The notes beneath the pieces are model-generated. The model was not told the DNA's origin, searched no databases, and worked only from the letters and a program-made list of their open reading frames with translations. From a virus, in IMG/VR virus record IMGVR_UViG_3300021959_000445, positions 1 to 22,185 of that record: DNA of 22,185 nt; one strand, written 5' to 3'. The position numbers and the translations under genes were made by a program. Shown one piece after another: positions 6,394-17,183 of the stretch (position 1 is its first letter; each line of letters begins with the position of its first letter).

Positions 6394-6735
6394 TTACGGT
6401 TCGAAGACTTGGCGGAAACTGGCTGAAATCGTGGCGCGGTTCACGTAAGGGATTGATTTGGTCCATTGATCGCAACGCCACTTGTAAGCAGTTGACTCAC
6501 CAAGAGGGGTCCAATCAAAGGCGTCGCCGTCATTAGCGCGAGCGTCGAGGAACGCTTCAATCGTGTCGGCGTCGGTTTCGGAAACTTCCCAAGTCAAATT
6601 CCAGGTTTTAGGGTTCTGGTTCAAGCCGAAGCGCAGCACCTGTTCGTAGCCGTCGCCAAACTTGACGACGCGATTCGTTGGAGCGCTGGACTTTTGGGCG
6701 CCGTAAGTTGGTGTTATCGAAGGGAACGTAGCCAT
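6394..6735 (-). CDS. M: Minor tail protein, lambda gpM-like
   Basis: This 113-residue protein matches the Phage_min_tail family in length and pattern: FGDGYEQVLRFGLNQNPKTW near residue 26, then the WEVSETDADTIEAFLDAR helix, and FDWTPLGE followed by YKWRCDQW. In lambda, gpM joins the tip complex around the tape measure before tube polymerisation. The start ATG shares one base with the tape-measure stop (TAATG), so translation is probably coupled. The next gene, L-like, starts immediately after its stop. No oddities were seen. Confidence 0.93.
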   Translation of the reverse strand: MATFPSITPTYGAQKSSAPTNRVVKFGDGYEQVLRFGLNQNPKTWNLTWEVSETDADTIEAFLDARANDGDAFDWTPLGESTAYKWRCDQWTKSIPYVNRATISASFRQVFEP

Positions 6736-9332
6736 TAGGCGAGGAGACCTCCCGGACGCTTCTGCTTAATCAATTCTGCCTGCACTGCAGCACCAATGGC
6801 ACGTCCCAGTTGAGCGGCGTCAGGCTGGTTGCCTTGGACATTGGTGCCAGAAGCATCAACGTTCACGGTGACGTTTGCGCCGCCCATTCCGTGGTTTGGA
6901 ACGATATTCCCTTGGGCGCCAGGGACAAATAGCTCAGGGCCTCGTTCTCCTACGAGGTAGGGCGATCCGGCGGATACAGAGCCGCCGCCGGCACGTTTTC
7001 CGAATCGACCGCTAAGGATGCTAAGCAAGCCCACACCTTGACCGGCGGGATCACCGGCATCTGCAAGAGTATTTAGACCAAAGCGGAACAACGCACTTGC
7101 CATAGTCTGTAGTGCGTTGGCAAGACTCTGCCGCCAAGAGTCAGTCGCAAAAATTAAATCTTCAAATACCTTTGTTGTGGATATACCAAGCTGGTTTACA
7201 AGATTGTTCAGTTGCTGCTGCGCTTCGATCTGCTGGTTCTTAATGTCTAAAAGCCGGAACTCCGCGTTCGCTTGATCTGCAGCATTTTCAACACCGTCTT
7301 TCTCAAGTTCCTGAATACGCAGGTTCAGCTCATAATCACGTTCGCGGCCTTGAATTTCCGCGGCTAAACGATTGATCCGTTCATTACTACCTCCAAGAGC
7401 TTGATCACGTGCATCATTTATACGCTGTTCGACCGCTGCAATTTGATACGCGGCCTCTAAGCGAGCTCGGTACTTCTCTACTTGTAGACTTTGCAGTTTG
7501 GCCGCCTTCTCTTGAGTGGGAATGTCCTCAAGAGCCACGTCATTTTCTTGTTTACGAATATCCAAAAGTTTTAAAGTTTGATTAAGTCTAATTCCAGTAA
7601 TTTCATTGCCCCGCAATTCTGCTTTGTACAGGTCTTTCTGTACAGTTGTCTGGTCTACAAGTAAGACATAGGCGTTTTGTAACTGCGCCAGCTGGCTCTG
7701 ACGTTCTTTACCACGCTTAGAGTCCGTCATTGACTGCGTAAGCTGGTCCTCTAGCTTTACTAATTCAGTTTCTTGGTTTAAAGCATCTTGAATACGTTTT
7801 AGGTCCGCCTTTAGTTTCTCTTCAACGCCCTTGCCTCTGTCTTTAGCTAGCTTTTCTGGGGAAATATCTTTTAGACGTGCGACAATCCTATCGAGACCTG
7901 GGATTTTTATACCACCGATCTGAAAGCTTTGTAGATATTGTGTTAGTTGTGCGGCAAGTACAACGGCCTGTGCGAGTCTCCCGCGAACTTCATCCCAGAA
8001 GTTGACTTGAGAGGCTACAGCAACCCGACTCTTAATACTCTCTTCCGTTACAAGTGCCAATAGTTTTTTCTGTGTGCCAACAGCACCGTTAACTTTCAGA
8101 TCTAAGAGCAGAGTTTTGGCCGCTTCGTTTCCGATAACTTTGCGTAAGCTCACTACAGCTTGTAGGGCCTTCTGCTGATTGACAGCTGCAGCGGCAATAG
8201 CCTCAAAGGTTGAAGCTTCGCCTACACCAGTGAAAACCCCTACAAGGGCCTCTCGGATTTTTCCATCTTTAAATTGTTTATAGGCGCTTAGTAAATCTAA
8301 AACTTCGTCCGTTTCAATGCTGAGAGCAGATGCAAGTCCGCGTACACTTGTAGCTGTTGTTTGTGTTGCACTTCCAGTATTTTTAACGCTGGAATTTAGC
8401 GCCAGTAGCTGTTTGTCTAGCCGGTCTGCTTTATCAATAACGTCTCCTATTGCCGTGCCTACGATGGACAAAGCAAAACCAAAACCACCTCCCAGTAATC
8501 CACCAGCCAAACCACCTGCTGCGCCACCCGCAGCCGCGCCACCACCTTGTCCGAATAAAAGAGGGAAGCCGCCACCGATTAGTCCACTGCTGATAGCGCT
8601 ACCAAAATCGGCTTTTGCGCCTAGGCGACTGAGCATTCCGGGGGCTCTTTGTGGGCCTATAGGTGCTCCATACTGATTAGATGTTGGTACGGGCGTCTTC
8701 AGTAACTCGTTGTTTACGGCTTTAATTCTTAAAGCTAATTCTTTATATTCTGCGGAACCTCTATCTACTATCGCTATAGTGTCTTCTAGTACATTAGTAT
8801 AGGTTAATAAAGCGTTAGTTGTATTTGCTGGTTTGAAGGACAGTAAGTCCTGTAAGGAAGAGAATGCCCCAAATGCGGGACCCCCTGCCCCCGGTTTTGC
8901 CATTAAGGCAAAGGTATTAGCGACTGTTTGTGCCTCGGTATTAAACCTCTTTAGTCCACTAAGGGCGGCACTAAAGTCTGTTTTGGCGATTGCTTGAGTA
9001 AAAGTAGTCCATTCGCCTTTGCCGAATTTTACATTCGCCCGGTATGCGCGAAACTGAGCACTCTGCTCCTTTAAGGCAGAACTGCCCTTGGTAATAACGC
9101 CCGTAAATTCACTAAAGGACCTAGCGGCCTCTAATGCGGCCTTTTTGTTTGCATTTATTTCATCCTTTGCGGCTCTACGGGCGTCGGCTACTTTCTTTTG
9201 TGTACTTACGCCCGATTCTTGTATTCTGGCTAGATCTTTTTCAATCGATCTCAGCTCTTTTAGTTGCTGAGTAAGCCTAGTCAGATTACCTGACTGTACG
9301 TTTACGCCGATATTGATGCCATAGTCGGCCAT
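6735..9332 (-). CDS. Tail tape measure protein
   Basis: At 865 residues this is the longest protein of the tail-shaft genes and follows the chaperone pair, as tape measures do. It is mostly helical with charged, Gln-rich coiled-coil stretches (about 20-75 and 500-720). A Gly/Ala-rich hydrophobic segment at 247-300 (GGFPLLFGQGGGAAAGGAAG and on) is the usual membrane-active part. The C-terminus ends with the common YLVGERGPELFVPGAQGNIV module. By the usual rule of about 0.15 nm per residue, the tail would be near 130 nm; this is an estimate. The DNA for roughly residues 1-750 is clearly AT-richer and uses different codons from the capsid genes, suggesting separate origin. It starts 31 bases after the frameshift ORF stop. 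Confidence 0.95.
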   Translation of the reverse strand: MADYGINIGVNVQSGNLTRLTQQLKELRSIEKDLARIQESGVSTQKKVADARRAAKDEINANKKAALEAARSFSEFTGVITKGSSALKEQSAQFRAYRANVKFGKGEWTTFTQAIAKTDFSAALSGLKRFNTEAQTVANTFALMAKPGAGGPAFGAFSSLQDLLSFKPANTTNALLTYTNVLEDTIAIVDRGSAEYKELALRIKAVNNELLKTPVPTSNQYGAPIGPQRAPGMLSRLGAKADFGSAISSGLIGGGFPLLFGQGGGAAAGGAAGGLAGGLLGGGFGFALSIVGTAIGDVIDKADRLDKQLLALNSSVKNTGSATQTTATSVRGLASALSIETDEVLDLLSAYKQFKDGKIREALVGVFTGVGEASTFEAIAAAAVNQQKALQAVVSLRKVIGNEAAKTLLLDLKVNGAVGTQKKLLALVTEESIKSRVAVASQVNFWDEVRGRLAQAVVLAAQLTQYLQSFQIGGIKIPGLDRIVARLKDISPEKLAKDRGKGVEEKLKADLKRIQDALNQETELVKLEDQLTQSMTDSKRGKERQSQLAQLQNAYVLLVDQTTVQKDLYKAELRGNEITGIRLNQTLKLLDIRKQENDVALEDIPTQEKAAKLQSLQVEKYRARLEAAYQIAAVEQRINDARDQALGGSNERINRLAAEIQGRERDYELNLRIQELEKDGVENAADQANAEFRLLDIKNQQIEAQQQLNNLVNQLGISTTKVFEDLIFATDSWRQSLANALQTMASALFRFGLNTLADAGDPAGQGVGLLSILSGRFGKRAGGGSVSAGSPYLVGERGPELFVPGAQGNIVPNHGMGGANVTVNVDASGTNVQGNQPDAAQLGRAIGAAVQAELIKQKRPGGLLA

Positions 9333-9363: not shown

Positions 9364-9558
9364 CTATCGCGATCCAGCGACTCTGGCCCCACGACCCGTT
9401 CTGGCACGATCCATTGCCTTTTCTTCCTCTTCACCCTTAAGGGCGTAGTAGGCAGCCCAGCCAACTAACTCTTCTTGCGTTAAGTCACGAGAAAGCTGGG
9501 CGACCGTCATGCCCAATTCCTGTGCGAGGAAGTAAATAAAAAACCAATCCCTCTTAGC
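9364..9558 (-). CDS. Tail assembly chaperone, downstream frame made by frameshift (lambda gpT-like)
   Basis: This frame has no good start of its own upstream of an internal ATG at residue 17. It is open from just after the A-run near the end of the upstream chaperone to a TAG, giving 64 residues. It begins AKRDWFFIYFLAQELGMT and carries LTQEELVGWAAYYALKGEEE, the type of conserved WxAYY segment seen in the second half of tail chaperones of many siphoviruses. It lies between the first chaperone ORF and the tape measure, exactly where lambda gpT lies. It is +1 relative to the upstream frame. I infer it is made only as a C-terminal extension of that protein, binding the tape measure during tail assembly. 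Confidence 0.8.
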   Translation of the reverse strand, partial: AKRDWFFIYFLAQELGMTVAQLSRDLTQEELVGWAAYYALKGEEEEKAMDRARTGRGARVAGSR

Positions 9559-9565
9559 TTTTTAG
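9554..9565 (-). other. Probable programmed +1 frameshift site in tail chaperone pair
   Basis: In the first frame the codons read CTA AAA AGC TAA. The P-site Lys tRNA on AAA (9562-9560) can move forward one base to another AAA (9561-9559) with full re-pairing. The next codons then become GCT AAG AGG GAT TGG, the start of the conserved downstream frame. A -2 slip gives the same frame but pairs less well, and no -1 slip reaches it. Lambda uses -1; phages with -2 (Mu) and +1 shifts at this gene pair are known. Confidence 0.7.
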
Positions 9566-9904
9566 ATCTGCCTTCGCTTCCTCCACCTTTTGGTCCGTAC
9601 CGGAAGTCAGCATTGCTAGCTGGATTTCTTGGAGGACAGTTGCGTCGACATCGCGGCGAAGAGCAGCGCGGTCACCGTCGGAAAACAGACGCTTACCCTC
9701 TTTGTCTAAGGCTTTCTGTACCATCAAATTAAGTGCAAAATCACCAGCATCATCGGATTCCGTGCGCTTTTGAATCGACTCTCGCTCTGCGATCGTCAGA
9801 GGATGCCAAAACACCTCGAGTACGACCTCGCCTTCGACTTTGACTTCGTGCTTGTAAAGCTGGCTGACGCCAAACTTATTCCTTAGAAGTTCTGCAGCTC
9901 GCAT
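9554..9904 (-). CDS. Tail assembly chaperone, first frame (lambda gpG-like)
   Basis: This 116-residue, charged, mostly helical protein lies between the tail terminator and the tape measure. That position, its size and the frameshift ORF after it identify it as the G-type chaperone that keeps the tape measure soluble and recruits tube subunits. It starts MRAAELLRNKFGVSQLYK and ends EEAKADLKS before TAA. In unshifted translation it stops there. With the shift at the A-run five residues before the end it would gain 64 residues. I do not recognise a named family from sequence alone; context carries most of the call. Confidence 0.85.
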   Translation of the reverse strand: MRAAELLRNKFGVSQLYKHEVKVEGEVVLEVFWHPLTIAERESIQKRTESDDAGDFALNLMVQKALDKEGKRLFSDGDRAALRRDVDATVLQEIQLAMLTSGTDQKVEEAKADLKS

Positions 9905-9936: not shown

Positions 9937-10365
9937 CTACGCGGTCGCCGTAAACTGGCATGAAATTACGCCTATGAAGTGGGACCTATCTTCTACATCC
10001 AGTGGTGTGGGGCCGACGATGTCTAAAACTCGAGGTTTTGCGCTGTAGGTGTCGGTATAGCCGCTGGCGTTCACAGAAGTTAGCCCATCGATCACAGCTT
10101 CACTAATCGCAGAAAGCACCGATGTGCCAGCAGACTTTGGCACGTATACATTGCACTGGATCGTTCCTGCGTAATAATCCTGCGCAGCACCTTGGTTTTG
10201 GAGTGTTGCTTGGCCAAAATTTACCGACATTAAAATGTATTTCTCGCTTTTACCTGGCCGCGTGAAAGCGACGTTGTCGTAAACCATCCGTACATCACCA
10301 TCGGCGCTCGAGACAGCGTCAGTTACAGCCTTTTCAAATGCCGCACGAGCGTTGACGAGAGTCAT
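9937..10365 (-). CDS. Tail terminator / tail completion protein (DUF4128-like)
   Basis: The 142 residues have the alternating helix-strand pattern of small tail terminators: an N-terminal helix (NARAAFEKAVTDAVSS), then strands with VYDNVAFTRPGKSEKYI and a C-terminal strand ending ISCQFTATA. The length and style fit the DUF4128 / tail terminator group, which caps the finished tail tube and forms the joint to the neck. It sits after the HK97 gp10-like gene and before the chaperone pair, which is the normal place. It starts 2 bases past the upstream stop. Confidence 0.75.
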   Translation of the reverse strand: MTLVNARAAFEKAVTDAVSSADGDVRMVYDNVAFTRPGKSEKYILMSVNFGQATLQNQGAAQDYYAGTIQCNVYVPKSAGTSVLSAISEAVIDGLTSVNASGYTDTYSAKPRVLDIVGPTPLDVEDRSHFIGVISCQFTATA

Positions 10366-13970: not shown

Positions 13971-14753
13971 TTAGACAGTTGCACCAAGTTCGTCGATGTT
14001 TGCCGGAGAAAGATTTAGCCACGCGCTGCCGTTATATCCCTCAAAGCGGTTTTCAGTGGTGTTGTATCGGATAGTTCCGGTGGTAGGTGTGCCGGGGCGT
14101 TCAGCAGTAGTTCCAACAGCAACGAAAGTGTCGGAGCCGGCGGGTCCTTGAGGTCCGGTTGCACCTGTAGCGCCAGTCAGACCTGTGTCGCCCTGCGGGC
14201 CTTGGGGACCTTGCGGTCCGGTTTCACCCTGAGGTCCTTGTGGTCCAGTGGCGCCTGTTGCGCCCGTTAGTCCGGTGTCGCCTTGGGGACCTTGGGGTCC
14301 GGTTGCGCCCGTTGCACCCGCGGGTCCCGTTTCACCTTGAATACCTTGCTCGCCTTGGATGCCTTGTGGGCCTTGAGGACCAGTGGCGCCTGTTGCACCA
14401 GTGGCGCCGGTGGGTCCGGTGGGACCTTGAGGGCCTGTGTCTCCGGTGTCCCCCTTGTCGCCTTTGTCGCCTTTTTCGCCCTGCAGGCCGGTGTCAGAAG
14501 TCTTGAGTGCGGTGGAACGGGGAGTGCCGTCCAGACTTTGCGTGCCGATGGCGACGGGTTGGCCGCTCCAGCCGTTTTCGGTGCGGGGGCCGTAGAGACG
14601 TTTGCTACTTACATCGACATACCAGTCGCCCGCGGTGCCGATGTCGTTGGGAGGACCGTCACCCGAATGCAGATTGTTGAATTGCTCGAAGCGCTTGGCG
14701 AGTTTTACCAGCGCGGTGATTTGCGCCAGCGTTAGGTGTTGCTGGGTCGCCAT
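13971..14753 (-). CDS. Collagen-like head-module protein
   Basis: Residues 1-88 form a non-repetitive N-terminal part with [20 protein letters not shown], a module frequent before collagen repeats in phage structural proteins. About 39 Gly-X-Y triplets follow from residue 92 to 206 ([19 protein letters not shown] and on). The block around 158-176 recurs at 188-205, showing expansion by duplication. The C-terminus ([20 protein letters not shown]) is a known short beta module for trimer registration in phage fibres. It is therefore probably a trimeric fibre. Its place between portal and scaffold suggests a head fibre or decoration rather than a tail fibre, which is inference. It starts 3 bases after the portal stop. 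Confidence 0.85.
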
Positions 14754-16760: not shown

Positions 16761-17183
16761 TTACTCAAGGTTGCCGGTGATCGTGCCGCTCGTCACGAAG
16801 TTGCAGGTAACAACAACCAGATCACCAGTGGTGGAGGCGATGTCCATGCTGGTGATAATGCCGGCAAAGTTCACCGAGTCGGAACCAGGGGTGCTGCCGG
16901 TGGTGAACAGCTCGAAGGTGGCGTCGGCGGTATCGCCGGTGGTCAGCACGTCCTCGATGAAGCCGGCTTGGCCGGTTGCATCAGCGTTGTAAACCAACTC
17001 GACGGTGCCGGAACCGGAGATCAGGCTGCCAACAAAGGAGCGGAAGGTGTCGCCGTGGTCGGTGACATCAAGGGTGTCTTTGGTAATGTTCAGCGTCCAG
17101 CTGCGGGTGCCAACGATGGTTGCGTTGGTAGTACCAGCGGCATCGAACTGAACAGAACCTTCTTCGCCGCGAAGAATGGCCAT
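16761..17183 (-). CDS. Major tail tube protein (displaced position)
   Basis: The 140 residues have the beta-rich pattern of tube proteins: MAILRGEEGSVQFDAAGTTN, then TRSWTLNITKDTLDVTDHGD and TFRSFVGSLISGSGTVELVY. The 'W-x-L-x-x-x-x-D-x-x-D-V-T' part followed by 'F-x-G-x-x-x-G-x-G' is common in TP901-1/lambda-type tube subunits. It should polymerise around the tape measure. The gene lies between terminase and portal instead of between tail terminator and chaperones, where I find no other tube candidate. A decoration or tube-like accessory protein is an alternative. Confidence 0.75.
   Translation of the reverse strand: MAILRGEEGSVQFDAAGTTNATIVGTRSWTLNITKDTLDVTDHGDTFRSFVGSLISGSGTVELVYNADATGQAGFIEDVLTTGDTADATFELFTTGSTPGSDSVNFAGIITSMDIASTTGDLVVVTCNFVTSGTITGNLE

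Follow-up and report, generated by a model that had tools for sequence, protein, structure and literature searches.

The window analysed here is a virus record of 22,185 bases from IMG/VR, taken whole, and carries on its minus strand two overlapping open reading frames (ORFs) immediately 5' of a tape measure gene. Gene order on this strand runs from the terminase, portal and head genes through a tail terminator to the overlapping pair, followed by the tape measure gene and lambda-like tail tip genes (Table 1). The zero-frame ORF ends with GCA GAT CTA AAA AGC TAA (...A D L K S, stop), and skipping one A joins the two halves at residue 115. The resulting fusion is 179 residues long, not the 175 given in an initial annotation of this DNA, which had rightly placed the conserved W-A-A-Y-Y segment in the C-terminal part. 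That annotation also held that the downstream frame lacks its own start, which is true at the junction but not of the whole frame: a TTG and an ATG (9510) lie 16-17 codons past its opening.

Table 1. Features of the predicted tail chaperone locus, in window coordinates.
Feature	Coordinates	Strand	Remarks
Tail terminator, directly upstream of the pair	10365..9937	-	PHROG 179, E 9.6e-12; PF13554, E 2.3e-5
Zero-frame ORF, predicted short tail assembly chaperone (gpG-like)	9904..9554	-	116 aa; TAA at 9556-9554
Shine-Dalgarno-like GGAGG, candidate stimulator	9584..9580	-	17 nt upstream of the slip codon; in 64/64 distinct window-clade sequences
+1-frame stop TAA, 5' bound of the shift	9564..9562	-	Last base is also the slip codon's first A; equivalent in 139/205 distinct relatives
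Predicted slip site AAA_AGC	9562..9557	-	P-site AAA 9562-9560 to AAA 9561-9559; then GCT 9558-9556
+1-frame ORF, predicted gpT-like extension	9561..9364	-	TAG at 9366-9364; no start at its head; holds W-A-A-Y-Y
Tape measure protein, directly downstream of the pair	9332..6735	-	PHROG 1538 (tail length tape measure protein), E 1.9e-12

Gene position, PHROG profiles and fold point to a lambda G/GT-type tail assembly chaperone, and bear out the initial annotation, which had recognised a tail chaperone pair. We predict with high confidence that this is the product of the locus and that its long form arises by a +1 slip at AAA_AGC. The first half alone matched PHROG 344 ("tail assembly chaperone", E 5.8e-7), and the second half matched PHROG 26456 (E 1.2e-8) and PHROG 337 ("tail protein", E 2.2e-5). 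PHROG 16513, also a tail assembly chaperone profile, covered residues 33-154 of the fusion and thus spanned the join (E 4e-6), and was much weaker against the first half alone (E 0.012). Sequence searches of Pfam, NCBIfam and PDB gave no matches for the chaperone. An AlphaFold model of the fusion, built from alignments that left out rows with frame-shifted loci or a GenBank record, was of modest quality (pLDDT 63.8, pTM 0.47). Its best fold match in the PDB was 2OB9, the tail assembly chaperone of HK97, at a probability of 0.99 and with an E-value of 0.035 that is not significant by itself, and its matches among viral structures include tail assembly chaperones.

Like lambda gpG/gpGT and other -1 chaperone pairs, the locus specifies a short and a frameshift-extended form, lies amid tail genes with the tape measure immediately after it, and keeps its frameshift-joined C-terminal domain in relatives. 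The pair very likely has the same role as gpG/gpGT. Lambda shifts -1, and the majority form of the family does so at a slippery heptamer, whereas the window phage would shift +1 at AAA_AGC; direction is not essential to the family, because +1 and -2 cases are reported. Of 78 window-clade loci, 73 have the tail terminator next to the chaperone. It occupies this place in both the window clade and the second main clade, L082, whereas in the -1 clade L076 the gene directly before the chaperone is that of the major tail protein. The window has its major tail protein gene (PHROG 10528) at 16761-17183, between terminase and portal, which places it some 7 kb upstream of the other tail genes. Between the genes for portal and major head protein, at 13971-14753, lies a 260-residue ORF with collagen-like Gly-X-Y repeats.

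We collected relatives by six scans of viral contigs, with several GenBank phages added, and obtained 374 loci containing both halves. The frame relation was +1 in about two thirds of these and -1 in the remainder. AAA_AG stood at the junction of every one of the 245 loci with a +1 relation and a complete upstream ORF (205 distinct sequences), and the full hexamer was AAA_AGC in 198 distinct sequences, AAA_AGT in 5 and AAA_AGA in 2. The initial annotation had proposed a +1 relation between the halves, which this shared relation and hexamer support. It had further suggested aligning related phages to see whether the frame relation and the A run are kept; the relation and AAA_A are, but the fifth A of the window's run falls in a freely varying Leu codon, and the run is four A's long in most relatives. 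Chance and sequencing error are excluded as explanations of the pattern, because the 245 loci come from many separate metagenomes and share both frame relation and hexamer.

The same comparison delimits the signal. The TAA just 5' of the window junction closes the +1 frame, which is also the -2 frame, so a forward shift must fall on AAA or AGC; likewise, where relatives have a +1-frame stop over the first A, the slipping codon can only be AAA or AGC. The codon preceding AAA_AGC encodes Leu, Met, Ser, Ala, Ile or Thr, and the signal is therefore AAA_AGC and not a longer word. Among relatives the zero frame stops 1-9 codons past the slip AAA, so the signal does not include an A-site stop codon. 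The codon read after the slip would be GCN in nearly all of them. Among the database phage records examined, AAA_AGC occurred only in an uncultured single-cell record, MH327491. No chaperone relatives were found in bacterial genomes, and so there is no prophage context; the host is probably a picocyanobacterium, judging only from related isolates on Synechococcus and Prochlorococcus. One L082-clade locus (L130, 2046-2504) has an internal deletion of about 79 nt that breaks the frame of its first half, and is either a defective copy or an assembly error.

Selection was examined by counting changes in 136 sequences of the two clades nearest the window, its own and L082, along a tree from which the junction had been left out. 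The slip Lys codon was AAA in all 136, with no third-position change, whereas 61 other conserved codons averaged 17.2 such changes (minimum 4) and three other conserved Lys codons had 10-14 each; the Leu before it uses all six codons. The site is thus conserved at the nucleotide level beyond what the protein requires. Over the first 15 codons of the +1 frame after the slip, the changes came to 5.3, 4.1 and 16.9 at the first, second and third codon position respectively, and the first in-frame start is usually at least 10 codons in. By these counts purifying selection acts on the +1 frame as early as its first codons, ahead of any start codon. This protein-like pattern right after the slip, with no start before it, is the strongest evidence here for a single joint translation product.

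We infer from these features that slippage would occur in the cell with an efficiency low enough for most ribosomes to terminate at the TAA and release the short form. In a minority, peptidyl-tRNA-Lys would sit on AAA in the P site with AGC waiting in the A site, and would slip forward by one base. Having re-paired with the overlapping AAA, it would leave GCT to be read next, yielding the fusion; the C-terminal domain of this form would connect tape measure and tail-tube subunit. As expected of a G/GT-type pair, the short and long products would both bind the tape measure, and the long one the tube protein as well. Movement of P-site tRNA-Lys from AAA to the overlapping AAA is the best-supported mechanism, because AAAA is invariant while the preceding codon varies freely; such forward re-pairing is possible in all 205 distinct sequences. 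The initial annotation had likewise invoked AAA-to-AAA re-pairing but on a run of five A's, of which only the four of AAA_A are conserved. A rare A-site codon was rejected as the driver: AGC is not rare in the phage, being the 13th commonest codon of the window genes (24 per 1000). Since the hexamer also occurs once in frame within the tail terminator gene, AAA_AGC is not sufficient by itself. Downstream RNA structure was likewise rejected: single window-clade sequences fold well there (mean Z about -2.2), but RNAalifold over 53 of them gave no consensus structure, and none was found in the L082 clade.

An upstream Shine-Dalgarno-like element is a candidate +1 stimulator, and its conservation exceeds what codon choice explains. 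Mean anti-Shine-Dalgarno pairing energy in the window clade was -9.3 kcal/mol, and synonymous shuffling weakened it to about -4.8 to -6.4 kcal/mol. The L082 clade has the element AAGGAGGT and its variants about 22 nt before AAA in 69 of 81 sequences, again well beyond synonymous shuffles, and there the encoded residues vary while pairing is retained. The element was weaker in other +1 clades and mostly absent from -1 clades (8/84, against a background of 1% per 9-mer). In published cases the Shine-Dalgarno element stands 3 nt away in +1 shifts and 9-14 nt away in -1 shifts (PMC5009743), so spacings of 17 or about 22 nt fall outside both ranges, and the prfB-type arrangement, 3 nt from the slip codon, is not found here.

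A -2 shift, as used by phage Mu (PMC5009743), ends in the identical frame, and the initial annotation had allowed for it beside +1; its product would carry an additional Lys at the join (...ADLKKAKRDW). A Shine-Dalgarno-like element far upstream is also more typical of backward shifts, with their spacings of 9-14 nt. Slipping back by two would nevertheless place tRNA-Lys on UAA, UGA, UCA or UUA; the bases before AAA vary freely, and the four invariant A's fit exactly the need of a +1 slip but not that of a -2 slip. The two directions are therefore unequal alternatives, and we regard -2 as very improbable. Less probable again is that the halves are two separate proteins, the second initiated internally or by coupling from its own TTG or ATG near 9510-9515. 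An AGGA does lie 7 nt ahead of ATG 9510 in the window, but only 43 of 134 aligned relatives share this ATG, and 11 of 138 have no start codon at all in the +1 frame. Purifying selection on the +1-frame codons ahead of the start also argues against internal initiation, as does the finding that no start codon follows the conserved Shine-Dalgarno-like element at a suitable distance.

The remaining explanations place the frame change outside the ribosome, and we consider both extremely unlikely. Homopolymer errors are common, and a viral UniProt entry of 179 residues, D6PII1, gives an alignment of 170 columns at 70% identity, as expected of a gene read in frame. An error of sequencing (named by the initial annotation as its own possible undoing) or of assembly within the A run is nonetheless at odds with a run of only four A's in most relatives, with the agreement of so many independently sampled loci and with the maintenance of the frameshift bounds by selection; for the family as a whole, sequence comparison has already refuted it. 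The A-rich site might also suggest transcriptional slippage, but four or five A's are too few: such sites consist of eight or more A's, or of combinations of runs (PMC3711429).

Other relatives preserve the same fusion of homologous halves through a -1 instead of a +1 shift, mostly at A_AAA_AAC. They include cyanophage KBS-S-2A, Pelagibacter phages HTVC202P and HTVC026P, and the L076 clade; cyanophage S-2L also has the -1 relation, but without this heptamer. Prochlorococcus phages P-HS2 (L379) and MED4-117 (L380) show a -1 relation near 1770, with the second half unannotated; their junction, GCA AAG GAA TCC TAA, lacks A_AAA_AAC and has no evident slip site. Trees of 72 and 51 representatives have well supported branches that force at least four changes of direction, and a +1 group of three loci (L268, L275 and L365) adjoins KBS-S-2A within a -1 clade. 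The position of the root, and hence the order of these changes, is uncertain on the trees. AAA_AGC and AAA_AAC differ in a single base. A broader reading, about which we are slightly more doubtful than confident, is that AAA_AGC serves as the general +1 slip site of a large aquatic siphovirus group, probably largely cyanophage-related; that it is stimulated by a long-spaced Shine-Dalgarno-like element of a kind not known to act on +1 shifts; and that +1 (AAA_AGC) and -1 (A_AAA_AAC) shifts have repeatedly replaced one another while the fusion was kept.

Ty1/Ty3-type +1 sites, such as CUU_AGG and GCG_AGU, are eukaryotic and depend on a scarce tRNA. The window site resembles them in slipping forward while an AGN sense codon occupies the A site; it differs in its P-site codon, AAA, and in that AGC is not rare among the phage's codons. 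The prfB site (CTT_TGA_C) shares the +1 slip of a P-site tRNA to an overlapping codon and an upstream Shine-Dalgarno-like element, but has a 3-nt spacing and a stop codon in the A site, in place of a sense codon and a spacing of 17 or about 22 nt. A +1 shift in a tail chaperone gene is not new as such: the SEA-PHAGES training data of PRFect contain 350 forward slip-site cases in these genes (PMC10885494), and HSTV-2 has a forward shift in its tail chaperone gene (PMC5009743). The PRFect authors state that no general motif is known for forward shifts (PMC10885494). These phages share gene and direction with the window phage; the present family differs in having one hexamer over 205 distinct sequences and a Shine-Dalgarno-like element in its two main clades. 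By the evidence of sequence, the forward frameshift of this marine phage is genuine and belongs to a known type, but we did not find its site in earlier descriptions. In the literature searched, outside which lie most subscription journals, we found no report of AAA_AGC with tail frameshifts, nor of its breadth, the long-spaced Shine-Dalgarno-like element or the repeated switching of direction.

The hexamer, in its 205 distinct sequence contexts, offers a natural set of variants in which +1 slippage of tRNA-Lys can be studied, and shows that either direction of shift can replace the other in evolution provided that the chaperone fusion is made. The motif would also let annotation tools recover the missing second halves of chaperone genes, which the records of the related isolates examined give as short "hypothetical" ORFs.
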